Of a DNA stretch of 35,377 nt, positions 500 to 35,377 are shown piece after piece. Positions within the stretch are counted from its first letter, which is position 1. The number at the start of each line of letters is the position of its first letter. A program made the position numbers and the translations under genes. The stretch comes from a virus, in IMG/VR virus record IMGVR_UViG_3300006079_000002, positions 1 through 35,377 of that record; one strand, written 5' to 3'. The notes below the pieces were generated by a model. The model saw nothing but the letters and a program-made list of their open reading frames with translations. It did no database searches and was not told where the DNA came from.

Positions 500-868
500 T
501 TATATCCTTGACAATTTGTCCATTACACCTGCATCCCATCTATGACTCAATGCTGAAGGTAGAACATTTAAATACTTTAAAAACGTTAATATTAACAAAT
601 GATATTTCTCTTGTATCTTATGAAGTAAAATTCTAGTGCAGTGGAAACTTCCGAACACATTTATTAGAATAATTAAATGATTCAATATTAATCTTTCTCT
701 CAACTTATTAGTATTTGAATATTGTTTTAATAATCTCTTTATATATTGTATTCTCTTTGCATCTTCAAGGAATTCTTCTGTATCAGAACATTGTGGATTA
801 TCATAGTGTATCGCCATATAAGCCATTATATTACTGTCATCTAGATTTTCAAATGTTCCACCCTTCAT
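500..868 (-). CDS. Conserved hypothetical protein, 122 aa
   Basis: The ATG at 868 follows an AAGGA site (AAGGAATTATAATG), and the stop is 9 bases into the run that leads to the next gene. The protein is mostly helical with a Leu/Ile-rich middle (residues about 45-105), but no clear transmembrane segment, signal peptide or catalytic motif is visible. It does not carry the MKxF N-terminus seen in the genes that precede it in the operon. It resembles small hypothetical proteins of marine T4-like phages, and I cannot assign a function. Its position between the tagged-protein cluster and the truncated conserved gene suggests late expression. Confidence 0.7.
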   Translation of the reverse strand: MKGGTFENLDDSNIMAYMAIHYDNPQCSDTEEFLEDAKRIQYIKRLLKQYSNTNKLRERLILNHLIILINVFGSFHCTRILLHKIQEKYHLLILTFLKYLNVLPSALSHRWDAGVMDKLSRI

Positions 869-877
869 TATAATTCC

Positions 878-1216
878 TTATTTGGTATAGTAAATTTCAA
901 TTGAATCATCTTTATGTGAACTAGAGTCTGATTGCCACTGTGCAAAATATTGTTTAGCACCTACCATTTTAATATGTTTTTTAACTGCAGGAAGTGATTT
1001 CTTTCCTTTAGTGTCTGCATAAGTCTTCTTTGCAGTTTTCTTAAAGGCATCAACTTGTTTTGCAACATCATATTGTACTCCTGATGAAGTATATCCATTT
1101 GAATCGACTCCATCAATAAATGCCGCATAACTATTACGACCTCGTACAGCAAACAATGGTTTAAACTGTTGTCCTTCTGTGACAAAAGATTGTCTTAATT
1201 CTGAAAACTTTTTCAT
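878..1216 (-). CDS. Small putative packaged protein with targeting-like N-terminus, 112 aa
   Basis: It begins MKKFSELRQSFVTEG, which fits the pattern shared by the whole cluster: Met, a basic residue, Phe at position 4, an amphipathic stretch, then Glu. A cut after VTE (residue 14) would match the T4 prohead-protease preference for Glu after a hydrophobic-x pair. The rest is basic and rich in Lys, Ser and Tyr, with no recognised enzyme motif. It starts 3 bases after the stop of the upstream zinc-ribbon gene. The capsid-targeting reading is inferred from the shared N-terminus. The cargo function is unknown. Confidence 0.75.
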   Translation of the reverse strand: MKKFSELRQSFVTEGQQFKPLFAVRGRNSYAAFIDGVDSNGYTSSGVQYDVAKQVDAFKKTAKKTYADTKGKKSLPAVKKHIKMVGAKQYFAQWQSDSSSHKDDSIEIYYTK

Positions 1217-1219
1217 TTA

Positions 1220-1360
1220 TTATTCCTCTTTAAAGGGAGTACCACATCTGGGGCACAATCCATCTTCTTGTGAAGGGCCAGACCAATCACATTTTAAGCA
1301 CTGTTCAGCGTATGCTATCCTTGCTAATTTCTTTTTATTATGTTGTTTTTGTTTTTTCAT
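1220..1360 (-). CDS. 46-aa zinc-ribbon protein
   Basis: This ORF fills the gap between two called genes. It starts at ATG 1360 and ends with tandem TAA codons just before the next ATG. The protein has a Lys-rich helix (residues 1-20) followed by a C-x2-C (C21, C24) and C-x2-C-G (C36, C39) zinc ribbon. The ribbon core, with WSGP between the knuckles and G-x-C-P-x-C-G in the second, closely matches the C-terminus of the upstream 120-aa protein, so the two are paralogous modules. It lacks the MKxF tag, though the basic N-terminus might substitute. The role is unknown; zinc binding is predicted from the four cysteines. Confidence 0.75.
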   Translation of the reverse strand: MKKQKQHNKKKLARIAYAEQCLKCDWSGPSQEDGLCPRCGTPFKEE

Positions 1361-1363
1361 AAT

Positions 1364-1726
1364 TTATTCCTTCATATCATATCCACACTTAGGACATACT
1401 CCATCTTTAGGCATCGGACCTGACCAACTGCACTCAGGACAGTCAACGTCTGCTGTTTCATCAAGTCCCTTTTTCTTTTTCTTATGGTCACTGCCACAAT
1501 CTTCTTTCTTATCTCCTGGCTCAGGTTTCTCGTTATCACCTTCCCAACCAGCATCTATTTCATCATAGAATTTCTTCTTATCAGCTGGAGCTAATTTATC
1601 AGGTTCATCTACACCATACTTCTTTAACGTCTTTCTAAAAAATGCTTGGTAAGCTGCCTTGTCTCCAGTCTTTTCGTCAAGACTCATCTCTCTATTATCT
1701 ATAATGAATTTACTAAAACTTTTCAT
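1364..1726 (-). CDS. Putative packaged protein with C-terminal zinc ribbon, 120 aa
   Basis: The start codon follows a strong site (AGGAG, 6 bases, ATG). The N-terminus MKSFSKFIIDNREMSLDE fits the cluster's targeting-like pattern, with a possible cut after LDE (residue 18). Residues about 25-65 form a short helical module (FFRKTLKKYGV followed by a KKKFYDEID segment) of a kind I recall in several cyanophage proteins. A charged linker leads to a zinc ribbon at C96, C99, C111 and C114 with the WSGP signature, nearly identical in design to the free 46-aa ribbon encoded just downstream. The function is unknown; nucleic-acid binding is a reasonable guess for a ribbon of this type. Confidence 0.75.
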   Translation of the reverse strand: MKSFSKFIIDNREMSLDEKTGDKAAYQAFFRKTLKKYGVDEPDKLAPADKKKFYDEIDAGWEGDNEKPEPGDKKEDCGSDHKKKKKGLDETADVDCPECSWSGPMPKDGVCPKCGYDMKE

Positions 1727-1750
1727 TTTATACTCCTATTATTCGTGTTC

Positions 1751-1921
1751 TTATTTTGGGGTTGGGGGGACGTAACCATTTCTAATGTGGTTTATAAACC
1801 CTCTGTCCTTACTTACAGCTTTACAATACTCTTTATATTCGACACCATCCATCGTCATTATATAATCAAGATCATCATCTGTTAATTCTTCTTTTGATAC
1901 TATTTGTTCAATTTTAGTCAT
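1751..1921 (-). CDS. Hypothetical acidic protein, 56 aa
   Basis: This short ORF starts at ATG 1921, whose A is also the last base of the upstream stop (TAATG overlap), a typical sign of translational coupling. It is acidic in the first half (KEELTDDDLDYI) and ends in PPTPK. It has no motif I recognise and no targeting-like N-terminus. The downstream non-coding stretch to the next gene is only about 24 bases. It is too short for a confident family assignment. Support comes from the coupling, the codon pattern, and the way it fills an otherwise empty gap. Confidence 0.6.
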   Translation of the reverse strand: MTKIEQIVSKEELTDDDLDYIMTMDGVEYKEYCKAVSKDRGFINHIRNGYVPPTPK

Positions 1922-2883
1922 TACCACATATCCTTAGTATTAAGTGTTGCTGGTGCATTGTCAAGAATCCACGAGTATAGTTTAGTCTGCAGTAATATGT
2001 CTTTAACAAACTTACCACCAGGTTTCTTCACCTGCAAATACTTGAAATCTTTAACTGTTACATTTCCCTTCTTAGCACCTTTAATTGGTTTCCCATTCTT
2101 ATCAGTCCATAAGATTGAGTGTTTATTTCCACCCAAAATAACATAGATTCCACCATCAGTTCCAGCAGGTTTATAACTATTACGAGTAATCTTACTCATT
2201 GTTAACGCTGCACCTTCGTGAGTCTGCAATAGAATATCTGCTGGTACTACACGATCTCTTGTAGCGTTTTGTCTAACTGCAACTTCATAATCAGTTAATA
2301 TCCATATGATATGAATGTTTTTAGGATCATATCCAATGTCAACTAATTTTGGTGCAACACCTTCTATCGCTTTAAAATTCTTAGCAGTTATATCAAATAT
2401 GATATTATCTAAAATTCCTTTTCTAGCTTTATCTTTAGAAGTCTTCATCATATTCTCTAAAGTCTTATCTTTAATTTTTAGAGCATCTACAAGAATATGT
2501 AATAAGTATACGTGTTGAGGATTTTTTAAATCTAATTGATCAAGCGTAACGTTCTTCTTAGTCATTTCTTTATCAATCAGTTCTTTATTCTTATCTGTGA
2601 TATTTCTACCGTGCTTCTTTAATATATCAGCAACACTAATCTTACCGTGCTTTGACATCTTCATTGTGAGTTTCTTCCACTCATCTACGTCACGTACTTT
2701 AAACTTATTTCCTTCTAGGAAATTTGATATGGCGAACCCTTTACCTGAACCTGCACCACCAGCTAGAAATATTATCTGACCATAACTTTTTCCACCACCA
2801 ACAATGATTAACTTTTCAATTAATTCTTCTACTTGTTCTGCAAGTACTTTATGTTCTGTAATATAACTATTAAATGATTTCAT
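1921..2883 (-). CDS. P-loop kinase-like putative packaged protein, 320 aa
   Basis: The N-terminus MKSFNSYITE is one of the cleanest matches to the targeting-like consensus, with a predicted cut after ITE (residue 10). A Walker A motif GGAGSGKG lies at residues 42-49 after a hydrophobic strand, followed by a short RDVDEWK segment like the substrate side of small-molecule kinases and zeta-toxin-type kinases. A later strand (IHIIWILTDYEVAV) followed by an Arg-rich stretch resembles the lid region of that superfamily. The kinase fold is well supported; the substrate is unknown. The gene overlaps the previous gene's stop by 4 bases. If packaged, it would act early in the infected cell. Confidence 0.75.
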   Translation of the reverse strand: MKSFNSYITEHKVLAEQVEELIEKLIIVGGGKSYGQIIFLAGGAGSGKGFAISNFLEGNKFKVRDVDEWKKLTMKMSKHGKISVADILKKHGRNITDKNKELIDKEMTKKNVTLDQLDLKNPQHVYLLHILVDALKIKDKTLENMMKTSKDKARKGILDNIIFDITAKNFKAIEGVAPKLVDIGYDPKNIHIIWILTDYEVAVRQNATRDRVVPADILLQTHEGAALTMSKITRNSYKPAGTDGGIYVILGGNKHSILWTDKNGKPIKGAKKGNVTVKDFKYLQVKKPGGKFVKDILLQTKLYSWILDNAPATLNTKDMW

Positions 2884-3941
2884 ATTCTTTCCTTGATTAA
2901 TTTCTTGGAGTACGCAATAATACTATCTACTTTACTAAATCCAATGTGAGTAAATTTCTTGCCTTTCTTAACCAATCTAAACCCATCACCTTTAGGTGGT
3001 GTGTGATGTTTAAATCCCATTACGAACTCACCTTTAATTTTACTTCCAGTAGAGATTAGTTTGCCTTTAAAACGAAGTCCTATTCGGATTCCAACCGATG
3101 ATTTACCATCAACAGTAACTTCATAGTCTCCTTTCTTAGAGAGTGAGACACCTTCTTCAATATTAACTTCTGATTCTGTAACAGTTTCAACTTTCTTTAA
3201 TGCATCCTTAATGATATGGTTCATTTCATCTGATTCATTGGCTTTCTTTAATGCATTCTTAATGATATGTTCATCACTTAAACCTTTAGCAATCTTCTCA
3301 ATCTGCTTAACAGCACCAGAGTAATCACCATCTGATTTACGTGCAATGGCAATTGCCTTTTTCATTTGTGCTCGAGAGAATATTTCAGTTAGTTCAACCG
3401 ATTCAGAAACAATCTTTTTCTTAGCAAAGAAGTCAACTACTTTCTTAGCATCATCAAATGCTACTTCGCCTTTAAAAGTTTTATGATCCATCCACCAGTC
3501 ATCAGATCCAGAGTCATAATATCCAGTGGATACTTGCTTGCCTTTATATGTTACAACACTAATATCAGCTTTTGAATCTTTACCAAATACATAATCACCT
3601 TTCTTAGCAAAGACTTTATCAATTTTGTATTGTTTGCCCTCTACAAGTTCAAGTCCATTAGAGCCTTCAGATTCAATGAACATTGTCTTCATACCTACGA
3701 TTTTCTTTTCCCACTTACCCCCTGCTTTCTTGGCAAGTCCAGGTAATGCCTTCTTGATTGCTTTAATGGCAGTCTTGCCCATTGCACCTTTCTCTTGAGC
3801 ACGCATCATCAAAGAACTAGCAGCCTTGTGTGCTTTCTTTGCCTTTGGGTCTTTAAGTAATTTCTTCATCTGAGAAACAAATGAACCTAAACCACTGTTA
3901 ACTTCGTCTAATTCGAATTTTATTTGTTTGAATGTTTTCAT
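2880..3941 (-). CDS. Lys-rich modular putative packaged protein, 353 aa
   Basis: It starts MKTFKQIKFELDE, with a possible cut after LDE (residue 13). The mature part is very basic: residues about 15-85 are Lys/Ala-rich helices, residues about 100-175 form a beta-rich domain (KGDYVFGKDS, WWMDHKTF), and residues about 185-240 hold a helical module (FSRAQMKKAIAIARK, AVKQIEKIAKGLS) of a type I recall in many cyanophage hypotheticals. A short repeat (HIIKNALKKANES and HIIKDALKKVETV) and a second beta-rich domain follow. No catalytic motif is seen. A TATAAATA late-type box ends 5 bases before the ATG and there is no clear ribosome site, so expression from that box would be leaderless. Confidence 0.75.
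   Translation of the reverse strand: MKTFKQIKFELDEVNSGLGSFVSQMKKLLKDPKAKKAHKAASSLMMRAQEKGAMGKTAIKAIKKALPGLAKKAGGKWEKKIVGMKTMFIESEGSNGLELVEGKQYKIDKVFAKKGDYVFGKDSKADISVVTYKGKQVSTGYYDSGSDDWWMDHKTFKGEVAFDDAKKVVDFFAKKKIVSESVELTEIFSRAQMKKAIAIARKSDGDYSGAVKQIEKIAKGLSDEHIIKNALKKANESDEMNHIIKDALKKVETVTESEVNIEEGVSLSKKGDYEVTVDGKSSVGIRIGLRFKGKLISTGSKIKGEFVMGFKHHTPPKGDGFRLVKKGKKFTHIGFSKVDSIIAYSKKLIKERI
3191..3274 (-). repeat. Tandem imperfect repeat of about 33 bases in the 353-aa gene
   Basis: Copies at 3191-3224 and 3242-3274 differ at only a few positions. They encode the duplicated helix HIIK(N/D)ALKK. This looks like a recent in-frame duplication. Confidence 0.75.
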
Positions 3942-3946
3942 ATATC

Positions 3947-3954
3947 TATTTATA
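3947..3954 (-). promoter_or_regulatory. T4-type late promoter box TATAAATA
   Basis: An exact match to the T4 late -10 box recognised by gp55 sigma. It ends 5 bases before the ATG of the 353-aa gene and overlaps the stop of the upstream gene. Start-site spacing would place transcription at or near the ATG. Confidence 0.55.
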
Positions 3955-4867
3955 CTCTTAATTTTTGATTGGTTGTCTTGAAATTTTTCTTCCTCATTAT
4001 CGTCTTAGCTATAAGGTCGAACTCCTTTGCTTTTTCATCCCAGTGCAGGACAAATGGCATGTTAATGTCTGTTTGTATGTCATTCAATACTGCTTGTGCA
4101 TCATCACCTAATTTTGGTATCTTCTTACCGTGTTTCTTATATGTCTGTTTGAATAGTCTAGTTAACTCGGCAACATTAATCTCTTTGCCATTACGTTTAT
4201 CATTTACACGATCCAAAAAATGACGTGTGAATTCAATGTCGATACCTACCTTTGCAAATATCTTATCAGCAAATTTCTCTACATCATTTAAGTCTGCCTT
4301 AGTCACTTCTTCTACATAAATCTCTTCTGCTAGATTTTCAATCTGAGCTGCCAGTTTATCAATTCTCTTTAATACTGCTAATTGTTTTGCTGATTTAAGC
4401 GTCATCTTAAAAGCGTTATTGAGTAGTTTCAATCTTTCGCGTTTCAAAGTCTTTATCTCAGTCTCGATAAGTTGTATCTCATACTCTTCATAACGTGTCT
4501 TACGATCAAGTACTTTTCTGAGTTCTTTTGGTTTAATTCCCATAATTTCTGCTGCCTTTGCTAGAGCAAGTCCTTTTGGATTAGCCACAAACATACCAGG
4601 TCTATTCTGTGCCTCTGGATTACGATTATATTCTTTCACCATTTGGTGATATAACTTAAGAGCTTTCTTATAATCTTCTGCGTGTAAAGCACGTTTAATC
4701 TTGTGTACCAATTTCTTTGGTAGTAGTCTTTTAATCAATTCTTTTGTCCAAGAGTCACCCCTACTCTTCTCATCTACCTGTTCTCCAGGGGTTACTCCTT
4801 TGTAGTTATCTGTAGTCTCTTTCTTACCTATTTCTAAGTATTCTTTAAAGTTATTTAACTTTTTCAT
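3950..4867 (-). CDS. Putative packaged protein with conserved C-terminal module, 305 aa
   Basis: The N-terminus MKKLNNFKEYLE is a slightly shifted version of the targeting-like pattern. Residues about 40-120 are helical and basic, and about 125-190 are likely coiled coil. Residues about 190-305 form a separate alpha/beta domain with HFLDR (216-220), an RNGKEI turn, an ELTRLFKQTYKKHGK helix, strands around NMPFVLHWD, and a terminal KTIMRKKNF segment. I recall this C-terminal module recurring in marine T4-like phage proteins. Its His/Arg pattern is reminiscent of small RNase or RelE-like folds, but that is speculation. The gene overlaps the upstream nucleotidyltransferase by 4 bases. Confidence 0.7.
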   Translation of the reverse strand: MKKLNNFKEYLEIGKKETTDNYKGVTPGEQVDEKSRGDSWTKELIKRLLPKKLVHKIKRALHAEDYKKALKLYHQMVKEYNRNPEAQNRPGMFVANPKGLALAKAAEIMGIKPKELRKVLDRKTRYEEYEIQLIETEIKTLKRERLKLLNNAFKMTLKSAKQLAVLKRIDKLAAQIENLAEEIYVEEVTKADLNDVEKFADKIFAKVGIDIEFTRHFLDRVNDKRNGKEINVAELTRLFKQTYKKHGKKIPKLGDDAQAVLNDIQTDINMPFVLHWDEKAKEFDLIAKTIMRKKNFKTTNQKLRV

Positions 4868-5448
4868 ACCTTCATCCCTTTACGTACTGCATCATAAATG
4901 TCTTTGGTGTCTTTGTCAGACGCACCTGTAGGCATACCTTTCTTATATGATTCGAAGTCATCACCCTTAGCGTGTTTTCTCATATCTGAACCACTCACTC
5001 CAGCGACTCTAGCACCAGAATTGACTACTTCGAAGTGGTCGAAATTGTATGATTTGCTTGGGTCTTTATGATTAATGTATGGTCTGATAGCTCTCTCAAA
5101 AGCAGCGACTCTATCTCCACCTACAACCATTGTAACATCTTTGAATCCCTTATCAGATAATATCTTCAATACATCGAATGCTGTCTTAACTTTGGTGTTC
5201 TTTACTATATTTGACTTAGGAAAAAACTTCTTCATGTACTTAACTTTAGTATTAAAGTCTAATGGATTCTTCTTTGGATCGTGAGACTGTGATGGAAAAA
5301 TCATAGATTGACCACCCTTCTTTCTACCCAATGCAGTAACGTATTCAATCATCGCTTGATGACCTTTGGTTATTGGGTTGAAGCGACCAAATGTAAACAC
5401 AACTGGTTTAAGTTTCGCTTCTTCTAAATGTCGTATAAATGAATTCAT
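4864..5448 (-). CDS. NMNAT/cytidylyltransferase-like nucleotidyltransferase, putatively packaged
   Basis: After a 10-residue N-terminus (MNSFIRHLEE) the protein enters directly into the first strand of a nucleotidyltransferase fold: VVFTFGRFNPITKGH, with the nucleotide-binding G-x-F-x-P-x4-G-H signature (residues 21-30). A later VSGSDMRK segment corresponds to the ISSTxxR motif that binds the triphosphate. VVGGD (about 107-110) follows the central strand. The family transfers AMP or CMP onto a phosphate, for example nicotinamide mononucleotide in NAD synthesis. The length (194 aa) suits a NadM-like enzyme. The start of the tag coincides with where a normal enzyme would begin, so the tag looks like an addition. 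The substrate is not proven. Confidence 0.8.
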   Translation of the reverse strand: MNSFIRHLEEAKLKPVVFTFGRFNPITKGHQAMIEYVTALGRKKGGQSMIFPSQSHDPKKNPLDFNTKVKYMKKFFPKSNIVKNTKVKTAFDVLKILSDKGFKDVTMVVGGDRVAAFERAIRPYINHKDPSKSYNFDHFEVVNSGARVAGVSGSDMRKHAKGDDFESYKKGMPTGASDKDTKDIYDAVRKGMKV

Positions 5449-5630
5449 TTCTCTTGCTTGATTATCCTATACTTTAGTAATGGTCTATTATTTATTAGAA
5501 TGTCACCCTTATCATTTTTGGTAATAGACTTGACTGTTATTCTCTTATTCTTAAATCTTCCACCCAATATTACATCACCAACTTTAATTGGTACTTTAAT
5601 ATCTTCGAATAATTCTTTGAATGATTTCAT
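5445..5630 (-). CDS. Small SH3-like putative packaged protein, 61 aa
   Basis: It starts MKSFKELFEDIKVPIKVGD, with the cluster's targeting-like N-terminus and an Asp or Glu cut position near residue 9-10. The remaining 50 residues (KVGDVILGGRFKNKRITV, NNRPLLKYRI) form a beta-rich barrel of a type I recall widely in marine myovirus proteins, often fused to other modules. It overlaps the downstream gene by 4 bases and follows the upstream stop by 3. Nucleic-acid or protein binding is plausible, but the function is unknown. Confidence 0.7.
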   Translation of the reverse strand: MKSFKELFEDIKVPIKVGDVILGGRFKNKRITVKSITKNDKGDILINNRPLLKYRIIKQEK

Positions 5631-5633
5631 ATT

Positions 5634-6050
5634 TTATTCTTTAATAGTCTTAGGTTTTCTTTTAGACCCTTTAAGTCTACTCTTCTCTTTCCTACCTTTA
5701 TTGATAGATTCTTTCTCAAATCCAACAATCTTTCCCTTCTTATGGGATGCATCTAAGCCATCACCATTACCGTAAGTACCTTTCTCTCTGTTGTATTTGT
5801 TCAGTTCAGCACGATACTTCTTTCTTTTTGTAGACGACTGGAATTTCTCATACTCGTCTTTATAATCTCTTTTTTCTTTTACATACTCCTCTTTATTTGA
5901 GTAATATGCAGCTATAGCCATTTCTTTTCTTTTCTTCTTTGACTTGCCTTGAAACTGTGGAGCGTCAGAGTCCATGAAATCTTTTATCCAATCTCCTACA
6001 TCAGCTCCAGGAGATAATTTTTCGTTCAAATGTTCTTTAAATGATTTCAT
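5634..6050 (-). CDS. Highly basic putative packaged protein, 138 aa
   Basis: The N-terminus MKSFKEHLNEKLSPG is a textbook example of the cluster's pattern, with a cut expected after LNE (residue 10). Residues about 15-50 hold a module (DWIKDFMDSDAPQFQGKS, KEMAIAAYYS) that I recall in cyanophage proteins. Residues about 70-138 are extremely Lys/Arg-rich and contain YRAELNKYNREKGTYGNGDG and DASHKKGKIVGFE, a second recurring module. The protein's high charge would suit DNA binding inside the head, as for T4 internal proteins. It overlaps the upstream stop by 1 base. The role is unknown. Confidence 0.75.
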   Translation of the reverse strand: MKSFKEHLNEKLSPGADVGDWIKDFMDSDAPQFQGKSKKKRKEMAIAAYYSNKEEYVKEKRDYKDEYEKFQSSTKRKKYRAELNKYNREKGTYGNGDGLDASHKKGKIVGFEKESINKGRKEKSRLKGSKRKPKTIKE

Positions 6051-6376
6051 TATAATTCGTCAAAGTAAAACTTTGCCATTTCTAATTTTGAATATCTTTG
6101 CATACCTTTACCATGACCTGATGGACGCACTTTACCATCGTTTATCATAATATAGTATTTGTATGAAAGTGTTCCACCTACTTTAATAATAGTATATTTG
6201 CCTGATGTCCATTCTGTCTCAGCAGTGAATTTCTTTAAGTCAATAAGTTTCAAATTCTTCTTCGAGACTTCCTTAGACTTTTTCCACTTCAATTTACTTT
6301 TATAAACTTCCATGACAAAGTCGTCAAACTTTTGCTTCACTTTCATGTGTTTGAAATGGTTTCTAAATGATCTCAC
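6050..6376 (-). CDS. Small basic protein with degenerate targeting-like N-terminus, 108 aa
   Basis: It begins MRSFRNHFKHMKVKQ, which keeps the M-basic-S-F start and aromatic spacing but lacks the usual Glu near position 10; the first candidate cut would be after VME (residue about 23). The protein is Lys-rich with a beta segment (GKYTIIKVGGTLSYKYYIMIN) and no motif I can name. The gene overlaps both neighbours by 1-4 bases, which places it firmly in the operon. It could be an exception to the packaged set, or it could use a different processing site. Confidence 0.65.
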   Translation of the reverse strand: MRSFRNHFKHMKVKQKFDDFVMEVYKSKLKWKKSKEVSKKNLKLIDLKKFTAETEWTSGKYTIIKVGGTLSYKYYIMINDGKVRPSGHGKGMQRYSKLEMAKFYFDEL

Positions 6377-6615
6377 TTACGTCTTCTTAATGTATTAGTT
6401 GCCAACATTGAAATGAAATTAATCTTTGCATCACGTAATGCAATCAAAGCTTTTTCTGGTAACTTTTCAATTGAAGCTCTCATTGACTTATACTTAGGTG
6501 ATGATGGATCCATTTTCTTTACTTTATCATATTCCTTACGTAATTGAGCAATCTGCTTTGGTGAAAACGATGCTGCCTCATTAATCTCTTCAGTTAATTC
6601 TTTAAATTTTTTCAT
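6373..6615 (-). CDS. Small putative packaged protein, 80 aa
   Basis: The N-terminus MKKFKELTEEINEAAS carries several Glu positions, with INE (residue 13) the likeliest cut. The remainder is a single helical module (FSPKQIAQLRKEYDKV, KMDPSSPKYKSM, ALRDAKINFISMLATNTLRRRK) that I recall as a recurring unit in cyanophage hypothetical proteins, usually after an MKxF-type start. It overlaps the downstream gene by 4 bases. No enzymatic motif is visible and the function is unknown. Confidence 0.75.
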   Translation of the reverse strand: MKKFKELTEEINEAASFSPKQIAQLRKEYDKVKKMDPSSPKYKSMRASIEKLPEKALIALRDAKINFISMLATNTLRRRK

Positions 6616-6619
6616 TTGG

Positions 6620-7849
6620 TTATCCCCAATTTTTAATTGCGTTGAAATTATTCCTACTAAATTCTAATCTATCTACTAGCTTCACAGCACTGTTAGATAA
6701 CTTATCAATTGCAACAAACCCTTCAGGTCCTGTTACTTTATATCCAGTATCAGTCTTTATGAATGCTGGTATCTTATTTACTTTCTCCATCTTACGAATG
6801 AGAATTAATTTGATGTCTGCTACAGTATCGTGCCACTCTAACGAATATGCGAGTGTACCACCCACTTTACGATTCTTATTAATAATATTAATTAAATCTT
6901 CTAATGCTTTCTTCTTCTTAGCTTTACCCTTCTCTGTCTTTAACTTATCAATCATTGGCTGATAACGTTTTCTTAAGAAGTCAATAAACCCACCAATTGC
7001 TTTCTGTTTACCACTGAATCTCTTTCCTTGTTTGGTTAAGTCATTAATATAGATTTTTAAGTTTGCAGCAATCTCTGTCTTACCAAATAATATTTTTAAA
7101 GCGCCTTTATCTAGAGTATTCAATTCTCTATGTGCTAACTGAATCTTTGCAAGAATTGATTTCATCTCAGACTTAGTCAGCGATGCTGTGCCAGATACAT
7201 CTCTAAAATTAGTATCAGTAAACCATACATCTTTATTCTTCTTTAACCCACTAATATTTATCTTAAATTGTGCAGACAAATCTGCTATAGTATCACCCTT
7301 ATAAGTGGTATGCCATACTACACCAACTTTAGATTTCGTTATTTTCTTGGCGAGAGTAGAGTCTGCTGGGATTGCATATGTAATAGTGTTTGGTGTGAAT
7401 GTCACATACTTACTACCATCAATAGTTTCTTTAGCCAAATCAGATGGTATGAACATGAAGTCACCTTGGATTATTCCTTTGATGTTCATCTTTGGAAATT
7501 CTTTAAGTGCAACTTTAAGTTTTACTGCAAGAGCAGGAGCGTGTCCGTGATTCTTATCTACGTCAGACGCTGTGTAATTAAGTTTTGGTGACTTATTGAA
7601 TACGGCTTTCGTACCAACAAAGAACTTACCATTCTCTGGATTGATACCAGCGACTACTGAGGGGGCGCCATCTACTTTCGCTTGAATGTTCACTGCTTTA
7701 TCAGAATGACCAGTCAATGCATCTGCCAAATCAGTTAGTATCTTCAGTGCTTGTGCTCCACCTTCATACCCAGCATCGAAGATAGCATCCTCAAGATGTT
7801 CTAGGTGGGTCAGTTTTGCTTCACTGATATATTTCTTAAATGTCTTCAT
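6620..7849 (-). CDS. Ligase-like (KxDG) putative packaged protein, 409 aa
   Basis: It begins MKTFKKYISEAKLTHLEHLED, with a predicted cut after ISE (residue 10). I recall homologues in cyanophages annotated only as uncharacterised. The motif spacing resembles covalent nucleotidyltransferases (DNA/RNA ligases): K58-V-D-G (motif I, with K58 as the would-be adenylated lysine), GDFMF near 129-133 (like motif III), VGVVWHTTYKG near 175-185 (like motif IIIa), EGFVA at 376-380 (motif IV), and VKLVDR around 389-394 (motif V). Residues about 230-345 form a helical Lys-rich insert. Ligase or related nucleotidyl transfer is my inference and needs a structural comparison. The 4-base overlap with the upstream gene suggests coupling. 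Confidence 0.7.
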   Translation of the reverse strand: MKTFKKYISEAKLTHLEHLEDAIFDAGYEGGAQALKILTDLADALTGHSDKAVNIQAKVDGAPSVVAGINPENGKFFVGTKAVFNKSPKLNYTASDVDKNHGHAPALAVKLKVALKEFPKMNIKGIIQGDFMFIPSDLAKETIDGSKYVTFTPNTITYAIPADSTLAKKITKSKVGVVWHTTYKGDTIADLSAQFKINISGLKKNKDVWFTDTNFRDVSGTASLTKSEMKSILAKIQLAHRELNTLDKGALKILFGKTEIAANLKIYINDLTKQGKRFSGKQKAIGGFIDFLRKRYQPMIDKLKTEKGKAKKKKALEDLINIINKNRKVGGTLAYSLEWHDTVADIKLILIRKMEKVNKIPAFIKTDTGYKVTGPEGFVAIDKLSNSAVKLVDRLEFSRNNFNAIKNWG

Positions 7850-9138
7850 TTTACTATTGCACTAAAACCTAAACGATTTCTATTTGGGTTTGGTGCTCCT
7901 CCCTGCCATTTAAACTTAAATGAGAAGTTCTTAAATTTCTCTCTCTTGAATGATAATGTCTTAGTTTTAACATCAACGTTCATTTGTAGTAGTGTAATCT
8001 GTTGTGCAACTTTTGTCAACACTTTTGATGCTTCATCTGAATTTAATACTTTAACAATAGAATGTCCCATAGGACCTAATAAGACACCAACTGGTTCTCT
8101 AAGATTGTTATCGTCATATTTCTTCCAAGTATCTCTACCAACATCGTTGCCTAATTCTTTATAGAATCCAGCCAGAAGTTTCTTCAATTCATTAGAATCT
8201 TTACCCTTTAACCAAACATTGAGTGCTTGTACAGACATTCCATTAACTGGAATCTTAGTTACATTACTTAATATCTTAATTGATTTAGTCTGATATATTA
8301 CGTGAGAGTGAACCCAACCTTCCATTATCTTCATCTCAGTCAATACAATTAGAGCGTTCAATAGTTTCTGTTCACCCATCGTGAATGCTTGTAAGAAACT
8401 TGGTTCAGCAATCTTCTCTTTGATTAATAGACTTATATTCTTAATAGAAGTAGGAGAACCACCACCAGATTTGACTGATATAGGATATTTTATTCTACCC
8501 ATTATACCATAAAAATCGACTAATGGTTCATTAATTGCACTTGGGAATATGATTTTTCTAAACCCAATGTTCTTCATAGACCATAAAGCACAACATATCT
8601 CACCAAAGTCATTTGATATAGTACGTAATTCTGCAGGAGTAATTCCACCAGTGGCTGGTGCAATGCTGAATTTTGCACCCTTTGTGGATGATTCCTTTAG
8701 TAATGTTTTTAATAGATTCTTGATAGGAGCAGAGTAAGGAAGAATTTCAATACCTGCTTTAGTTATTTTGATGACTTCTGCTGATGTTAACTCTACACCG
8801 GTTAGACCAGCAAATCTGTCAGGGGCTAAATCTTTAGTCTTGATAGATGAATTCGAACGAGTTTGATTTACGAAGTATGCCTTTCCTAATGAAGATTTAA
8901 TGACATAGGTAGCATATTGTCCTGATATACTGATATCAGCATCAGATACTGTGTATCCATATCTTGAGAAGTAGGCAGCGACATCGTCACCAACAGGGAA
9001 TCTTAGATGCCATCTACCATTCCTTCCGCCAGTATTATAACCGACTTTGGTTCCATGTTTAGATGATAAATCTTTGAGTATTGCCTGTTCGACACTCGCA
9101 GCAGCTGCTTCATTGAAAAAATGTTTAAATCTATCCAT
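7846..9138 (-). CDS. Possible PD-(D/E)xK-type nuclease, putatively packaged, 430 aa
   Basis: This is the first gene after the late promoter and starts MDRFKHFFNEAAAAS, with a cut expected after FNE (residue 10). The central part has a layout like restriction-endonuclease folds: a helix with D178-F-G-E180, a strand ending in E204-P-L-V-D208, and then P-I-S221-V-K223 followed by a Gly-rich turn. The usual second acidic residue of the (D/E)xK pair is Ser here, so the assignment is tentative. The C-terminal third is basic and beta-rich (KNFSFKFKWQGGAPNPNRN). No ribosome site is obvious before the ATG. It could be a delivered nuclease acting on host DNA, or a structural protein. Confidence 0.65.
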   Translation of the reverse strand: MDRFKHFFNEAAAASVEQAILKDLSSKHGTKVGYNTGGRNGRWHLRFPVGDDVAAYFSRYGYTVSDADISISGQYATYVIKSSLGKAYFVNQTRSNSSIKTKDLAPDRFAGLTGVELTSAEVIKITKAGIEILPYSAPIKNLLKTLLKESSTKGAKFSIAPATGGITPAELRTISNDFGEICCALWSMKNIGFRKIIFPSAINEPLVDFYGIMGRIKYPISVKSGGGSPTSIKNISLLIKEKIAEPSFLQAFTMGEQKLLNALIVLTEMKIMEGWVHSHVIYQTKSIKILSNVTKIPVNGMSVQALNVWLKGKDSNELKKLLAGFYKELGNDVGRDTWKKYDDNNLREPVGVLLGPMGHSIVKVLNSDEASKVLTKVAQQITLLQMNVDVKTKTLSFKREKFKNFSFKFKWQGGAPNPNRNRLGFSAIVK

Positions 9139-9166
9139 TAGGAGTCAGTAGTTCATTAATTAGTAA

Positions 9167-9174
9167 TATTTATA
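9167..9174 (-). promoter_or_regulatory. T4-type late promoter box TATAAATA for the left cluster
   Basis: An exact late -10 box 28 bases before the ATG of the 430-aa gene, in a 65-base intergenic gap. It is well placed to drive the whole run of tagged genes from 9138 to 1. Confidence 0.75.
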
Positions 9175-9203
9175 TTTATTATATCAAGACTCTCTCGATA
9201 GAC

Positions 9204-9347
9204 TCATTTATCATTTCTATCGAAAAATACACAATGTACCATTGCATATAACACCATAATGATTGAGGTGATACCTAATACGACAATCCCTATGAGTCCA
9301 AAGAATAGAAATGATACTATGAATATTGTTGCTAAGAAACCTTCCAT
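9204..9347 (-). CDS. 47-aa single-span membrane protein
   Basis: This ORF starts at ATG 9347 and ends TGA at 9204. It is almost entirely hydrophobic from residue 3 to 40 (IFIVSFLFFGLIGIVVLG, then IIMVLYAMVHCVFF), then DRNDK. That is enough for one long or two short inner-membrane spans with a cytoplasmic charged tail. It sits 10 bases downstream of another tiny membrane protein, so the two may form a pair. No homologue is recognised. Superinfection exclusion, lysis control or membrane sensing are possible roles, but none is shown by the sequence. Confidence 0.65.
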   Translation of the reverse strand: MEGFLATIFIVSFLFFGLIGIVVLGITSIIMVLYAMVHCVFFDRNDK

Positions 9348-9357
9348 TATAGTTTCT

Positions 9358-9477
9358 TTATTCTTTATCACTTTCGACTTTTCTATTTCTAGAATAAATA
9401 CTCATTCCAACTAAGATTACCATTGCCATCATATATAACATAGCACTGGCAAGTACAAATTCACTAAATAATTCCAT
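9358..9477 (-). CDS. 39-aa single-span membrane protein
   Basis: It starts at ATG 9477 with a good AGAGG site about 9 bases upstream, and overlaps the end of the 172-aa gene by 14 bases. One transmembrane helix (residues about 8-27: VLASAMLYMMAMVILVGM) is followed by a charged tail, RNRKVESDKE. With the 47-aa protein encoded just downstream it forms a pair of mini membrane proteins at the end of the accessory block. The function is unknown. Confidence 0.65.
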   Translation of the reverse strand: MELFSEFVLASAMLYMMAMVILVGMSIYSRNRKVESDKE

Positions 9478-9982
9478 TTTTTACTACCTCTTTTTTTAAT
9501 ATTTCTAGAAACGTAATGTATTCTTCGTGTTCCTTCCTATGGTGGGTAGACATTGCAAAATCTATTGGGTTATCGTCTTTGTTTATTGGATCCCACCATT
9601 CATGCGCCGTGGCAATAATATTGTGATTCTCCATGTTATCTATAATTACATCAATCATTTTTTTCCTATCTTTAGGATACTTACCTCCTGCGTCTGTCAA
9701 ATAGGTTGGTTTGTTTAATATTTTTTTCACTTGTCTAGCGTCTCTTTCTGCCTGCCTAGCTCTTAAAACAGGGTCAGAGATTTCTTGCTGCACATATTGA
9801 GGGTGCTTCATTTGGTCAGAAGGCACATAGTTATCACTAAACCACCCTGCATCACCACTCTTAAATCCATTTAAATCTTCTTCTAATTTTGCTATTGCTT
9901 CTTCTTCTGTTCCTTTAAAGTTAGTGAAGATAGTTATTTCTAACCTATATGTTTCTTCTTCAATATCATATATTTTTCTCAT
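9464..9982 (-). CDS. Hypothetical protein, 172 aa
   Basis: The start ATG at 9982 follows an AAAGGAGT-type site. The protein is charged and mixed alpha/beta, opening with a strand pair (YRLEITIFTNF) and a helix (EEEAIAKLEEDLNGF). A Trp-rich stretch (HEWWDPINKDDN) and a C-terminal helix follow. There are no signal, membrane or catalytic motifs that I can name. It lies between a thioredoxin gene and two small membrane-protein genes. The function is unknown. Confidence 0.65.
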   Translation of the reverse strand: MRKIYDIEEETYRLEITIFTNFKGTEEEAIAKLEEDLNGFKSGDAGWFSDNYVPSDQMKHPQYVQQEISDPVLRARQAERDARQVKKILNKPTYLTDAGGKYPKDRKKMIDVIIDNMENHNIIATAHEWWDPINKDDNPIDFAMSTHHRKEHEEYITFLEILKKEVVKNGII

Positions 9983-9996
9983 TTTTACTACTCCTT

Positions 9997-10254
9997 TTAT
10001 TCAAATAATTTTAAAAGTTCTACACTAGATTTAGACCCCATCAACACTGTAGGTTCTTCACCTTCACGTTCAAATACTGTTGCTGGAACTCCTCGTAATC
10101 CGTGTTTCTCTGCAAACTTTTTACCCTCATCAGTGTCCACATCTAATGACAGGATATCCCAATTCTCTAAATCCTTAGTTACTGATTCAAAAATTGGTGC
10201 ATACTGTTTACACGGGCCACACCATACTGCACTTACTTTAGTTACTTTATTCAT
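9997..10254 (-). CDS. Thioredoxin-like protein, 85 aa
   Basis: This is a compact thioredoxin fold with the redox motif W11-C12-G-P-C15 and the cis-proline loop GVPAT (P57) opposite it. At 85 aa it is shorter than E. coli thioredoxin (108 aa) because the N-terminal strand-helix is trimmed, as in phage thioredoxins such as T4 NrdC. It would act as a cytoplasmic dithiol reductant, classically for ribonucleotide reductase, although no nrd gene is in the window. Its ATG overlaps the TGA of the upstream 37-aa gene (ATGA coupling). Confidence 0.9.
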   Translation of the reverse strand: MNKVTKVSAVWCGPCKQYAPIFESVTKDLENWDILSLDVDTDEGKKFAEKHGLRGVPATVFEREGEEPTVLMGSKSSVELLKLFE

Positions 10255-10364
10255 TTTACTCCTTCCTTTTTAGATTCTTTTTTCTTATCAAGATGTACAC
10301 GCTTTCTGAACATTGGAGTTCTTACTGCGTGTAATATTTTATTCTTGATTGGTTTCTTTTTCAT
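10251..10364 (-). CDS. 37-aa Lys/Arg-rich protein
   Basis: It starts at ATG 10364, inside the 3' end of the previous gene in another frame, and ends with TGA overlapping the thioredoxin start. The sequence is very basic with an RTPMFRKRV core (residues 15-23), which resembles a family of very short phage proteins with an R-T-P-x-F-R-x-R-V motif that I recall from many tailed phages. Their function is unknown; nucleic-acid binding is an obvious guess from charge. An AGTTAAAT-like leader gives no clear ribosome site, so coupling to the upstream gene is likely. Confidence 0.65.
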   Translation of the reverse strand: MKKKPIKNKILHAVRTPMFRKRVHLDKKKESKKEGVK

Positions 10365-10491: not shown

Positions 10492-10760
10492 TGAATCTCC
10501 CACTTATAAACAGAACCATTTACTGTTTCAAATGTTACTTGTCGATGGTGAATTGAAAGACCATCATCATCTTTTAAAATCTTTGTGACTGTCTCAGTCT
10601 TATACCACTGAGAACCACCCTCAACAAGTAATACACTGCCTACAGTTGGTTCGTTGATATTATCATCAGAAGAAAATGACTTAGTAATGATTCCATCCTT
10701 AACCATCACTCCAAATGATTGTTCGTTTCCTATTCCATCAATTTTTGTTAGTCTATACAT
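10488..10760 (-). CDS. Hypothetical beta-rich protein, 90 aa
   Basis: It directly abuts the amidotransferase-QueC gene upstream (1-base overlap, TAATG type) and couples to the next gene by ATGA. The protein is predicted to be mainly beta strands (FGVMVKDGIITKSF, VGSVLLVEGG, SVYKWEI) with an acidic central loop. It has no catalytic motif. Its tight link to the queC fusion makes a role beside deazaguanine synthesis conceivable, but nothing in the sequence proves this. Confidence 0.65.
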   Translation of the reverse strand: MYRLTKIDGIGNEQSFGVMVKDGIITKSFSSDDNINEPTVGSVLLVEGGSQWYKTETVTKILKDDDGLSIHHRQVTFETVNGSVYKWEIQ

Positions 10761-12034
10761 TAAAACACTCCATCAATAGATACTCTATTTCTAAAAACAG
10801 GGTCTTTAACTCCGTTTCTCTCAAATGCAGTTTTCCTCATAAAACAAGGAGCACAATTACCACAATGTAGTTTTTCATCAGAATAACAAGACCACGTCAT
10901 CTCAAACGGAACATCTAGACGTATACCTTCTTTAACAATCTCGTGTTTCATAAATGTTGAGATAGGTTGGAGTAATTCAATTTTAACACCATTCTGTGTA
11001 GCATATGGTAGAATGTTATTAAAGAGTCTACCAAATTCTTGTTCATTATCAGGGTATGCACCACTCTCCTCAAGATTACCACCAAATGCAATATATCCAA
11101 ACTCATTGGATTCTGCCCAAGCAGTTAATATTGACAACATCAGTAAATTTCTACCTGATACCCAATCCTCTGCATATTCAGTTCCTGCAATTTTATCCTT
11201 GTGGTAAGTCCCTTCAGTGATTGTTCCTCTCATCACGTTAGGCATTTTAATAAATTCTAAATCAAATCCACCATCTTTTGCAATCTTTTCGATTCTATCT
11301 ACTTCATTTCCCTCTGCAAGACAATCATATAACATATGAACTAACGTAACATCATATCCCTGTTCTTTTAACATGTATGCTACCACTGTGGAATCTAATC
11401 CAGAAGAGGCGCTGACCACAACCTTATTAGACTGTGTTCTTGGTATCTCAACTGTTCTATTATTTCCTCCTACTAAATCAATTTCCATTATACTATAAGG
11501 TGGTAATGCAACACTTGGTGCAAGAATCATATCTGGTGTGGATGCCCAGATTAAATAGTCATCACACTGATAGTAGTAAATAGGTTTGAAGTTCGCTGCT
11601 AAGATTACACCATTCTTACTATGATATGCAAGAGCAAAACTCCCTTTAATTTTTTGTATTTGTGAAAGTGAATCTTCAAACTCCCTAGACTTTATTATTA
11701 ATGGTAATACCATTGAGTCAATTGGTAGGTCTGCAAAGTCTTTATCATTAGCAATAACACCATTGTGGACAATACCATCATATGGTTGTAATATACCTAC
11801 GGCAGTTTCAGACTCCGTTGTGGGAGTTGCTCTGAAATTTCCTAAGACCCTATTACTATTACATATAACCCGTTTGTCTTCCTCACTCATTACATTAGAG
11901 TCATTCCTAACTTCACCATACGGACTAGTTACTTGAAAACCATATCCATCTCTACCACGCTCATTAGCCTTGGTTAATAAATGGTTTTTTACTTCGTCTG
12001 GTACATCACCATACCATCCTACAATTGAACACAT
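10760..12034 (-). CDS. queC: Class II amidotransferase-QueC fusion for 7-deazaguanine synthesis
   Basis: Residues 1 to about 195 are a class II glutamine amidotransferase: the start MCSIVGWYG leaves Cys2 as N-terminal nucleophile, and RGRDGYGF (26-33) and IVHNGVIAN (88-96) fit the glutamine site. Residues about 204-424 are QueC: PP-loop S210-SGLDS, GRNLLMLS (294-301), GGN-LEESGAYPDN, and a zinc site C383, C391, C394, C397. QueC uses ATP and ammonia to turn 7-carboxy-7-deazaguanine (CDG) into the amide (ADG) and then preQ0. The fused domain would supply ammonia from glutamine. Similar fusions are known in Campylobacter phages with 7-amido-7-deazaguanine in DNA. With FolE, QueD and DpdA here, DNA modification is the likely purpose. 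The gene follows an AGGAG site 6 bases from ATG. Confidence 0.92.
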   Translation of the reverse strand: MCSIVGWYGDVPDEVKNHLLTKANERGRDGYGFQVTSPYGEVRNDSNVMSEEDKRVICNSNRVLGNFRATPTTESETAVGILQPYDGIVHNGVIANDKDFADLPIDSMVLPLIIKSREFEDSLSQIQKIKGSFALAYHSKNGVILAANFKPIYYYQCDDYLIWASTPDMILAPSVALPPYSIMEIDLVGGNNRTVEIPRTQSNKVVVSASSGLDSTVVAYMLKEQGYDVTLVHMLYDCLAEGNEVDRIEKIAKDGGFDLEFIKMPNVMRGTITEGTYHKDKIAGTEYAEDWVSGRNLLMLSILTAWAESNEFGYIAFGGNLEESGAYPDNEQEFGRLFNNILPYATQNGVKIELLQPISTFMKHEIVKEGIRLDVPFEMTWSCYSDEKLHCGNCAPCFMRKTAFERNGVKDPVFRNRVSIDGVF

Positions 12035-17301: not shown

Positions 17302-17330
17302 ATTTTACCACAATTAGAAGAAAGAGTCAA
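17302..17330 (-). promoter_or_regulatory. Putative sigma70-type promoter for gp43
   Basis: TTGACT (17325-17330), a 17-base spacer ending TGG, and TAAAAT (17302-17307). It lies in the 3' end of dpdA; the -10 ends 6 bases before the gp43 ATG. Confidence 0.55.
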
Positions 17331-18567
17331 GTGATTGTGCAGTATTATTTACTTTAGATTTCTGCTCTTGTTTCCATCGTCTAGCCACCTTTGGATTATC
17401 CCAACCACGATTGATAATATTGATACCATCTATAGGGTTATTGAATGCCTCTTTAATCACCATTACGTTATTCCAAATTGGAGTTGGTATTGCTGATTCA
17501 ATAGCAGCATCAATTCCCATATATAACATATCCTCTACCACATCCTTATAGCGTAACATCTGGTATAGATTATGTGATGCTCCTAAAGTATAGAATGGAA
17601 CTGAGTTGGTTAAGAATTCTTTGATGTCTACAATATCTCTACAGATAGGACAAATACAAGGAAGTTTAGCATCATCAGGTACATTACTATAATCAAATCT
17701 ATTAGATAGAGTCAATGAAGTGAATCCAGCAGACTTCTGATATAGAGGTCCTGACTCTTCACTCATAAAGTAGTCACCAAATGCAAACGTTCTAGTAAAA
17801 TAAGAACTGTCATAAGTAATCTGAATATCAACACCGTGTTTGTTTAATTCGTCTTGAACGACTGCAAGATACAACATTACCACTGCTCTACTAATACCAA
17901 ATACGTGATGTACTTTAATTGTATCTTTGTCGTATTCACCATCATTCCACAAGTGGATGATTGTACTTAGAATAGTTTTCATGTTGGCAAGATGACCACC
18001 GTGAGCCCATCCATCTAATGGATATTGCTTCATTGCATTATACCAAGGGATTACACTATTCATGTTACTGCCTTGTACAACATTCATCACAGTAGTGTTA
18101 TCACGTGTTCTATTATCAAGATAGTACTGTGCTGATACTTTCGTTAAATCTAATCTATCATTAAATGTTAATACAGGAGAATTCTTATCTTTTATTTTTC
18201 TCTCAGCACCTGGTCTATCTAGAATTGGGAAGATGTCACCATTGGCTTCAGAGAATTTAAGTGCAACTTCATTGCCATAATTCTTTTCACTGATTACACC
18301 TGTAGCCAATTGATAACCACCTGAGTCAATAAACACTTGGGTATCAGGACTACATCCCATCTTCTCTCTGAAGTTATCTAATTTATAGTGATGTGCTGCT
18401 GATAGTAATACGTATGGATGTTTGAAATAACCCTCTGTAGTACTATCGAAGAATCTTGCAGACTTAGTGAATGCTGGTGATTTTGCTTTTAATTCTTCAT
18501 CTGTATTTCCGTACAAGTACGAAGAAAATGTTCCTGCTAACGCAGGGTAGTATATCGCTCTTTTCAT
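17314..18567 (-). CDS. dpdA: DpdA-type DNA guanine transglycosylase
   Basis: A TIM-barrel enzyme of the tRNA-guanine transglycosylase (TGT) superfamily. The motif D81-SGGYQ86 corresponds to the catalytic D-S-G-G-F-Q of TGT. D253 in TYDSSYFTRTF corresponds to the nucleophile region, and the zinc site is C304-x-C306-x2-C309 with H332. Divergent members called DpdA exchange guanine for 7-deazaguanine bases in DNA. Linkage with folE, queD and a queC fusion, inside a phage replication operon, favours this over tRNA queuosine. At 417 aa it is longer than bacterial TGT (about 375). The incoming base (preQ0, amide or other) cannot be read from sequence. It starts after folE with an 18-base gap. Confidence 0.88.
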   Translation of the reverse strand: MKRAIYYPALAGTFSSYLYGNTDEELKAKSPAFTKSARFFDSTTEGYFKHPYVLLSAAHHYKLDNFREKMGCSPDTQVFIDSGGYQLATGVISEKNYGNEVALKFSEANGDIFPILDRPGAERKIKDKNSPVLTFNDRLDLTKVSAQYYLDNRTRDNTTVMNVVQGSNMNSVIPWYNAMKQYPLDGWAHGGHLANMKTILSTIIHLWNDGEYDKDTIKVHHVFGISRAVVMLYLAVVQDELNKHGVDIQITYDSSYFTRTFAFGDYFMSEESGPLYQKSAGFTSLTLSNRFDYSNVPDDAKLPCICPICRDIVDIKEFLTNSVPFYTLGASHNLYQMLRYKDVVEDMLYMGIDAAIESAIPTPIWNNVMVIKEAFNNPIDGINIINRGWDNPKVARRWKQEQKSKVNNTAQSLDSFF

Positions 18568-34417: not shown

Positions 34418-35377
34418 TTACAGATTAGCTACTGTAAATGTACGGAAGTAAGGGTTGTCACCTGCCGAGCCAGAAGCAAACGGGTTGTGCTGTACAGCAT
34501 AACGAGTCTTGAATCCGATACGTGGCTGGAAGTCATTCTCACCAATGCTCTTCATCATTTGTAATGGAACATATGGACAATAGAAGATACCAGCATCATA
34601 TGCATTAGAACCTTTAAAGCCAACAGTGATGTAATCAGAAGAAGCATATTGGTCAACAAAGACTTTATACTTACCACCAAGAACACCAGCGAACGTACCT
34701 TTAGTGAAATCAGAACTGATTGAACCAGTTGAGACACCCATACCAGCTGGCATATCAAGTCCAACAGTCATATCTAGAACAGACGCAACATTTGGAGATA
34801 CAATCAACCAGTTACCCATACCACGACCAGTCTGTAGACCAATTGTGTTAGCTTCCTTGTTGATTTGTAGTAACATACCTTTCACTTTCTCAGCAGCCCA
34901 ACGACCATCTGAATCAGCAACAAAGTCATATGCACCAGCAGTAGCACCAGGTTTTGCTTGTGAGTTAATTGTAAGAACAATCTCACGATTAATTTCATTC
35001 AAGATTTCAGCAGATAAGATATTAGCTAATTCAGTCTCGGCATCTAAACCGTGAATTGCTTTTAAATCTTGTGCTAATTCAGTTGAATACTTAGCTTTCA
35101 ATGCTCTAGAACCAGCTGTTACACTAGTTTTCTCAATTGAGAATGACATTTCAGCATAGTCTCCACCTGCCGCTGCACCCAAACCTGCTGGATGAGCTTC
35201 AGAACCTAATATCTCTGCTGCACCAGTAGCCATATCACCAGAATGAGTTTCATCTGGAGCTGCTGCTGCACCACCTAAACCTGAAAGTGCTTCAGTAGGT
35301 GATACTTCTTGACCTTGCTCGTGACCATACCAAGTCTTCATAGCGAAGATAAGTCCAGTAGGACCTGTCATCGGTTG
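34418..35377 (-). CDS. 23: gp23 major capsid protein, 5' end cut by window edge
   Basis: The frame is open to base 35377, so 319 residues of the C-terminal part are seen. It begins QPMTGPTGLIFAMKTWYG, the segment that follows the mature start in T4 gp23. Other familiar parts are AAAGGDYAEMSFSIEKTSVTAGSRALKAKYS, LDAETELANILSAEI, GRGMGNWLIVSPNVAS and a C-terminus with NPFASG. It forms the HK97-fold capsid lattice after gp21 removes its N-terminal propeptide. The ATG at 35371 is internal; the missing N-terminus is likely 100 or more residues. A strong terminator follows. Confidence 0.97.
   Translation of the reverse strand, partial: QPMTGPTGLIFAMKTWYGHEQGQEVSPTEALSGLGGAAAAPDETHSGDMATGAAEILGSEAHPAGLGAAAGGDYAEMSFSIEKTSVTAGSRALKAKYSTELAQDLKAIHGLDAETELANILSAEILNEINREIVLTINSQAKPGATAGAYDFVADSDGRWAAEKVKGMLLQINKEANTIGLQTGRGMGNWLIVSPNVASVLDMTVGLDMPAGMGVSTGSISSDFTKGTFAGVLGGKYKVFVDQYASSDYITVGFKGSNAYDAGIFYCPYVPLQMMKSIGENDFQPRIGFKTRYAVQHNPFASGSAGDNPYFRTFTVANL

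Follow-up and report, generated by a model that had tools for sequence, protein, structure and literature searches.

In bacteriophage T4 the internal proteins are sent into the head by a capsid targeting sequence (CTS) at their N-terminus. The first 10 residues of IPIII are enough for incorporation, residues 4 and 7 governing targeting and residues 8 and 10 processing, and Asp at position 10 stops processing and leaves targeting intact (PMC9026906). The internal proteins are characterised as basic, and it has been proposed that the CTS allows T4-like phages to carry various proteins (PMC9026906). IPI blocks a restriction enzyme, and IPIII is needed by T4 on one wild E. coli strain (PMC9391042). 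Here we analysed the window, a virus record of 35 kb (IMGVR_UViG_3300006079_000002, positions 1 to 35,377) with T4-like gene order from a marine, Kyanoviridae-type phage, in which a block of minus-strand genes encodes mostly unrelated proteins that open with a shared N-terminal tag. An earlier note, made from the letters of this DNA, had read the block as a late operon whose products are packed in the head. We argue that it is very probably a late cargo operon addressed by a CTS in the manner of T4 and extended to large enzymes.

The stretch from 878 to 9138 holds 14 genes, 12 of which open with M-[K/R/N/D]-x-F-x-x-[F/Y/H/L]-[I/L]-x-E or with looser variants of it (Table 1); six of the 12 tags follow the strict pattern and the rest do so partially. 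The eleven or twelve consecutive tagged genes that had been announced are therefore twelve in number but not an unbroken run, being interrupted by untagged 1220-1360 and 1751-1921, and of the proposed cluster span, 500-9138, the part from 878 onwards holds the tagged genes, while gene 500-868 is an untagged, conserved gene of T4-like phages. The remaining called genes of the window are without the tag; no replication gene has it. Phe or Tyr stands at position 4 in 11/12 tagged genes as against 2/33 others (p = 9e-8), [L/I]-x-E falls within residues 5-18 in 8/12 as against 5/33 (p = 0.002), and tagged genes are concentrated inside the cluster (Fisher p = 6e-9). The description of the tag as M-(K/R/N/D)-x-F plus a Glu thus holds in outline, several members being without a good cleavage site. 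As the cluster was picked by the tag, these within-window statistics are partly circular; the non-circular tests were the application of a window-derived profile to T4 and to cyanophage S-CREM2, and a count of tagged open reading frames (ORFs), coding strand vs opposite strand, in 80 related loci.

The positions conserved in the window tags are those to which T4 genetics ascribes targeting and processing, namely 4, 7, 8 and 10, and two of the tags (MKSFSKFIID and MKSFKELFED) carry Asp at position 10. A CTS profile built solely from 11 window tags, when applied to the complete T4 genome, ranked gene 61.1 first, followed by ipI, ipIII and ipII, which places all three internal proteins among the four best of 278 genes (chance ~1e-6). 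T4 Alt was not recovered by this profile. The close likeness to the CTS of T4 internal proteins, as claimed earlier, was thus borne out by a profile that had seen none of them. The T4 gene 61.1 (NC_000866, locus L094, 18966-19130; 54 aa, MKTFKEFIKEDMVAG), which outscored the three known internal proteins, may, judging by its N-terminus, encode an unrecognised T4 head protein; our literature search found no report of 61.1 as a known virion protein.

It could be supposed that the shared start is a translation signal, with A-rich codons following the ATG, or a chance product of base composition, as AAA is the most frequent codon at tag positions 2 and 5 and the genome is AT-rich. The codons at the conserved positions speak against it: F4 is TTT or TTC, E10 is GAA or GAG, position 7 alternates between TTT/TTC, TAT, CAT and TTA, and third positions are free, so the tag is conserved at the amino-acid level and not at the nucleotide level. 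Neighbouring genes which are just as AT-rich are without it, and S-CREM2, with a G+C of 48%, has it. We find such an origin hardly credible. In a full-length alignment of the 7846-9138 protein, M1, F4 and E10 are invariant and the remaining N-terminus is variable.

Furthermore, we compared the tag with published cyanophage virion proteomes. In S-CREM2 (PMC10665884, Table 3) the top four of 219 proteins ranked by the window-only profile, gp154, gp6, gp136 and gp14, were all detected in virions by mass spectrometry, as were 6/7 of the top-ranked proteins (p = 8e-4; p = 4e-5 among genes not annotated as structural). They include three enzymes, the S-adenosylmethionine (SAM) hydrolase gp6 (MKDFDSFLEE), the kinase gp14 (MKRFDAFLTE) and the cytidylyltransferase gp154 (MKNFSSFLTEA). 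A cytidylyltransferase is reported in the virions of S-CREM2, S-SCSM1, S-SZBM1 and S-SM1 (for S-SM1, PMC3037559), and the window protein 4864-5448 is homologous to these cyanophage enzymes, with 34-39% identity in three phages. The S-SCSM1 and S-SM1 enzymes start with MKSFLQFLKEA and MKKFSAFLNEA and that of S-SZBM1 with a shifted tag, MRFRQFIIEA. The genes 89-97 of S-SCSM1, which form a syntenic block, are mostly annotated as virion proteins, and the untagged DUF6267 homologues S-SZBM1_141 and S-CREM2 gp87 are absent from the virion lists consulted. S-CREM2 gp12 (7704-10313 of locus L084, minus strand), annotated as Cas9-like and listed in the virion, has the tag motif LRFASFMAEA about 17 residues past its annotated start, so that this start codon may be wrong. 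A short domain after the tag is common to the otherwise different virion proteins S-CREM2 gp12 and gp14, S-SCSM1_91 and S-SM1 190 (e.g. LNLKHIGYGRYADPSGNVTHMSKDGKLV).

Several observations weigh against delivery of the tagged proteins in the head. Four of the 12 tags have no (L/I)xE site in their first 18 residues, and MRSFRNHFKH, MKKFSELRQS and MKTFKQIKFE are weak tags. The cyanophage DUF6267 proteins examined have no tag; S-CREM2 gp175, whose tag is weak, and S-SCSM1_30 are tagged and do not appear in the virion reports; and the syntenic block also yields virion proteins that lack a tag (S-SCSM1_90, 92 and 93 and S-SZBM1_139), so the tag is not the sole route. The authors of the S-CREM2 study stated that such proteins might be contaminants co-purifying on CsCl (PMC10665884). 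All the virion evidence comes from related phages. Since short amphipathic N-termini serve many kinds of docking, this last fact and the tagged proteins missing from the virion lists would also suit a tag that docks elsewhere than on the prohead core, be it at the host membrane, the replisome or the phage transcription complex, on proteins that would be ordinary late cytoplasmic enzymes. On the other hand, the T4 CTS determinants are matched position by position, virion detection follows the tag in S-CREM2, the window's replication genes are all untagged, and a gene in the prohead core slot beside gp21 is tagged (see below); we therefore hold docking elsewhere to be very unlikely and retain the head-targeting explanation.

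The 80 environmental loci were fetched around DUF6267, one fetch pattern being the window's own tag peptide MKTFKKYI, because of which DUF6267 members, but not other families, are favoured in this sample. ORFs passing a profile score of 9 numbered 130 on the coding strand vs 3 on the opposite strand. The tagged proteins of these loci fall in about 31 families, and the cargo set differs between close relatives. The tag is found once per polypeptide: in locus L003 the cytidylyltransferase and protein 5 are a single 444-aa protein with one tag, while in the window they are separate and carry one each, and in L006 the separate protein 5 has a full tag, MKSFKEYIEEG, at the site of the linker in the L003 fusion. 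In the DUF6267 proteins of L046 and L069 an extra domain lies between the N-terminal tag and the body, and an old-tag remnant such as DSILEAS precedes the body.

The window ends inside gp23, and gp22, gp21 and the core gene should lie past its edge. In a close relative (G006, the contig of locus L009) the order is portal gp20, a tagged 148-aa gene (MKSFKILREDLEE), gp21 (PF03420), gp22 (PF25623) and gp23, and in T4 the equivalent slot beside gp21 is occupied by gp67 and gp68, which are prohead core proteins; synteny therefore assigns a tagged protein to the prohead core in this kind of phage. Genes for a gp21-type S77 prohead protease are present in G006, G009 and G010; in G010 the neighbour of this gene has a start resembling the tag (MKYFSEIRSK, score 8.4). 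The tagged core-slot gene of G006 could also mean that the tagged proteins are structural or scaffold parts of the head, which are degraded or trapped at maturation and not delivered to the host. Tagged L040 14716-16536 and window 2880-3941 would fit with this: LxE-type motifs (VELDEI, ELTEI) recur inside them, as if the prohead protease were to cut at several places, which makes them look like multi-site core polypeptides. But several tagged proteins are enzyme-like (PF01467, HD_4 and P-loop proteins, and the SAM hydrolase and kinase of S-CREM2), and the set varies between close relatives, unlike core structural genes; we regard a purely structural role as unlikely.

The block was said to begin at a late box at 9167. 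The box exists, yet TATAAATA-type boxes in the window alone are at chance level (5 found vs 5.3 expected), and it is because of its conservation upstream of the first tagged gene in 7/7 related loci checked that we retain it as a conserved late box. Moreover, the cargo bodies, with the first 14 residues removed, are basic in 11/12 cases, with a pI of about 9.7 or above (median 9.7) vs a median of 5.3 for other genes (p = 8e-6). Seven lines of evidence thus support the claim of a T4-type targeting tag on head cargo: the positions defined by T4 genetics, the profile result in T4 and that in S-CREM2, the four virion reports of the cytidylyltransferase, the tagged gene in the gp67/68 slot, the basic nature of the cargo bodies and the late box shared with related loci.

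Since the same tag sends T4 proteins into the head, the phage of the window probably injects a protein kit with its DNA; packaging, cleavage and injection in this phage are what we infer from the tag. The amphipathic tag, with its aromatic residues 4 and 7, would dock each protein on the prohead scaffolding core during assembly. A gp21-type protease would then cleave the (L/I)-x-E site behind its Glu and release mostly basic mature proteins in the head, DNA would be packaged around the freed proteins, and these would be ejected with the genome into a new host. By analogy with T4 IPI, IPIII and Alt the purpose may be immediate protection of the injected genome together with host takeover, and the kit may comprise small proteins plus enzymes: a nucleotidyltransferase, perhaps NAD-related, a P-loop protein and possibly a nuclease and a ligase. 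We also lean towards a wider view, with less assurance than for the operon itself, in which Kyanoviridae-type marine phages use a T4-type CTS as a general export label on an exchangeable cargo operon of a dozen genes, whose products (enzymes of nucleic-acid and NAD metabolism, an alarmone-hydrolase-like HD protein in one relative, and basic proteins) would be injected as a repair, counter-defence and takeover kit.

Three of the cargo proteins were identified, as cytidylyltransferase/NMNAT-like, DUF6267 and P-loop (phrog_5268) proteins. Protein 4864-5448 scores above the curated PF01467 cut-off (29.7 bits vs 21) and is predicted to be a cytidylyltransferase/NMNAT-like enzyme, possibly NAD-related, and 6620-7849 exceeds the curated DUF6267 (PF19782) cut-off by far (363 bits vs 27). 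The alignment of DUF6267 has the invariant residues K58-x-D60-G61, E376-G377-x-V379 and K390, which resemble motifs of ligase-type nucleotidyltransferases, and that of 7846-9138 keeps a DFYG...ISVKSGGG motif resembling a PD-(D/E)xK nuclease; we take both as weak leads. Neither likeness was backed by profile searches or by sequence searches of the PDB, a fold search with their AlphaFold models (pLDDT 73 for 7846-9138 and 70 for DUF6267) gave no significant PDB match, and hhalign of the DUF6267 profile with T4 RnlB and T4 DNA ligase gave none either, so the possible nuclease and ligase activities are read from motifs. Ten tagged cargo families of relatives were compared with Pfam, and one protein alone passed the cut-off, a tagged 185-aa HD_4 protein (L040, 13803-14360; E=1e-16) which resembles (p)ppGpp hydrolases and is possibly an injected alarmone hydrolase.

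As to the purpose of the cargo, the T4 precedents make early counter-defence and host takeover the likeliest hypothesis. The window also contains 7-deazaguanine genes (10760-12034, 17314-18567, 18586-19260 and 19523-20119), encoding a protein in which an amidotransferase-like N-terminal part is joined to a QueC domain, a weakly archaeosine-transglycosylase-like (possibly DpdA-like) protein, FolE and QueD. These genes suggest that the phage DNA is 7-deazaguanine-modified, and, if so, it might, speculatively, meet modification-dependent restriction, as T4 DNA does.

The features of the operon are given in Table 1. From the right edge of the window the order is gp23, uvsW, gp47/46, sliding clamp, clamp loader, DNA polymerase, uvsX and helicase, and then the tagged block, the names having been assigned partly by sequence inspection. 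A megablast of the operon against isolate phages gave no match.

Table 1. Parts of the tagged operon and the capsid gene at the window edge (window coordinates).
Position	Strand	Feature	Remarks
9167..9174	-	Late-promoter-like box TATAAATA of the cargo operon	34-42 nt upstream of first tagged gene in 7 related loci
7846..9138	-	Tagged protein, 430 aa, MDRFKHFFNEAAA, no family; DFYG...ISVKSGGG similar to PD-(D/E)xK nuclease (weak)	Alignment A4; model without PDB match
6620..7849	-	Tagged DUF6267 protein, 409 aa, MKTFKKYISEA; KxDG, EGxV and K motifs nucleotidyltransferase/ligase-like (weak)	PF19782 E=2e-108; alignments A1, A5
6373..6615	-	Tagged small basic protein, 80 aa, MKKFKELTEEINE	
6050..6376	-	Tagged protein, 108 aa, GTG start, MRSFRNHFKH (position 10 without acid)	
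5634..6050	-	Tagged basic protein, 138 aa, MKSFKEHLNEK	
5445..5630	-	Tagged small basic protein, 61 aa, MKSFKELFED	
4864..5448	-	Tagged cytidylyltransferase/NMNAT-like protein (predicted), 194 aa, MNSFIRHLEEAK	PF01467 E=8e-7; phrog_3041/395; homologues in virion proteomes
3950..4867	-	Tagged protein (protein 5), 305 aa, MKKLNNFKEYLE, shifted tag	Fused to cytidylyltransferase in relative L003
2880..3941	-	Tagged Lys-rich protein, 353 aa, MKTFKQIKFELDE	
1921..2883	-	Tagged P-loop protein, 320 aa, MKSFNSYITE, GGAGSGKG Walker A	phrog_5268
1751..1921	-	Small untagged gene within cluster	
1364..1726	-	Tagged acidic zinc-ribbon-like protein, 120 aa, MKSFSKFIID (Asp at 10)	
1220..1360	-	Small untagged zinc-ribbon-like gene within cluster	
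878..1216	-	Tagged basic protein, 112 aa, MKKFSELRQSFVTE	
34418..35377	-	Major capsid protein gp23, 5' part cut by window edge	PF07068 E=2e-100

If this explanation is true, the injected proteome of uncultured phages would be readable directly from sequence, and a ten-residue label would allow prediction, from sequence only, of the proteins which marine T4-like phages deliver at infection. Under T4 assembly rules it would also account for many cyanophage virion enzymes that were left undecided between cargo and contamination, and the operon points to a rich store of unstudied injected proteins against host defences.

Compared with T4, the window proteins share with IPI, IPII and IPIII (Mullaney and Black 1996; reviewed in PMC9026906) a ten-residue tag with aromatic residues at 4 and 7, a hydrophobic residue at 8 and Glu at 10, and likewise basic cargo, a gp21-type protease (in relatives of the window phage) and a late-type promoter box. 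They differ in that T4 has three scattered small internal protein genes whereas the window has twelve tagged genes in one operon, with cargo of up to 430 aa and enzyme-like domains, located after the helicase gene in a cyanophage-type gene order. T4 Alt, an ADP-ribosyltransferase packed in the head and ejected (PMC9026906), is like the proposed cargo in being an enzyme, but no ADP-ribosyltransferase was identified in the window. With the cytidylyltransferase/NMNAT and kinases of cyanophage virions (S-SM1, S-SZBM1, S-SCSM1 and S-CREM2) the operon has in common a homologous cytidylyltransferase in a syntenic block with the same tag; in the parts of those studies at hand no targeting signal is reported, one leaves contamination open, and their DUF6267 proteins, where seen, carry no tag. 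The giant phages SPN3US and phiKZ, in the accounts available to us, eject a large protein payload processed by the prohead protease, and are thus alike in having a large processed payload but belong to a different phage group. A full-text search of the open-access literature for capsid targeting together with cyanophage returned the T4 review (PMC9026906) alone. The earlier note had held cargo of this scale and variety to be undescribed; as far as searched this is so for the tag and mechanism in such phages, while cytidylyltransferases and kinases had already been reported in cyanophage virions, with no explanation in the parts of those reports at hand. The principle of the tag is already known from T4; what appears to be new is that Kyanoviridae-type phages carry it, that it labels the large proteins of a long operon, and that it can account for virion enzymes on which earlier work had not decided.

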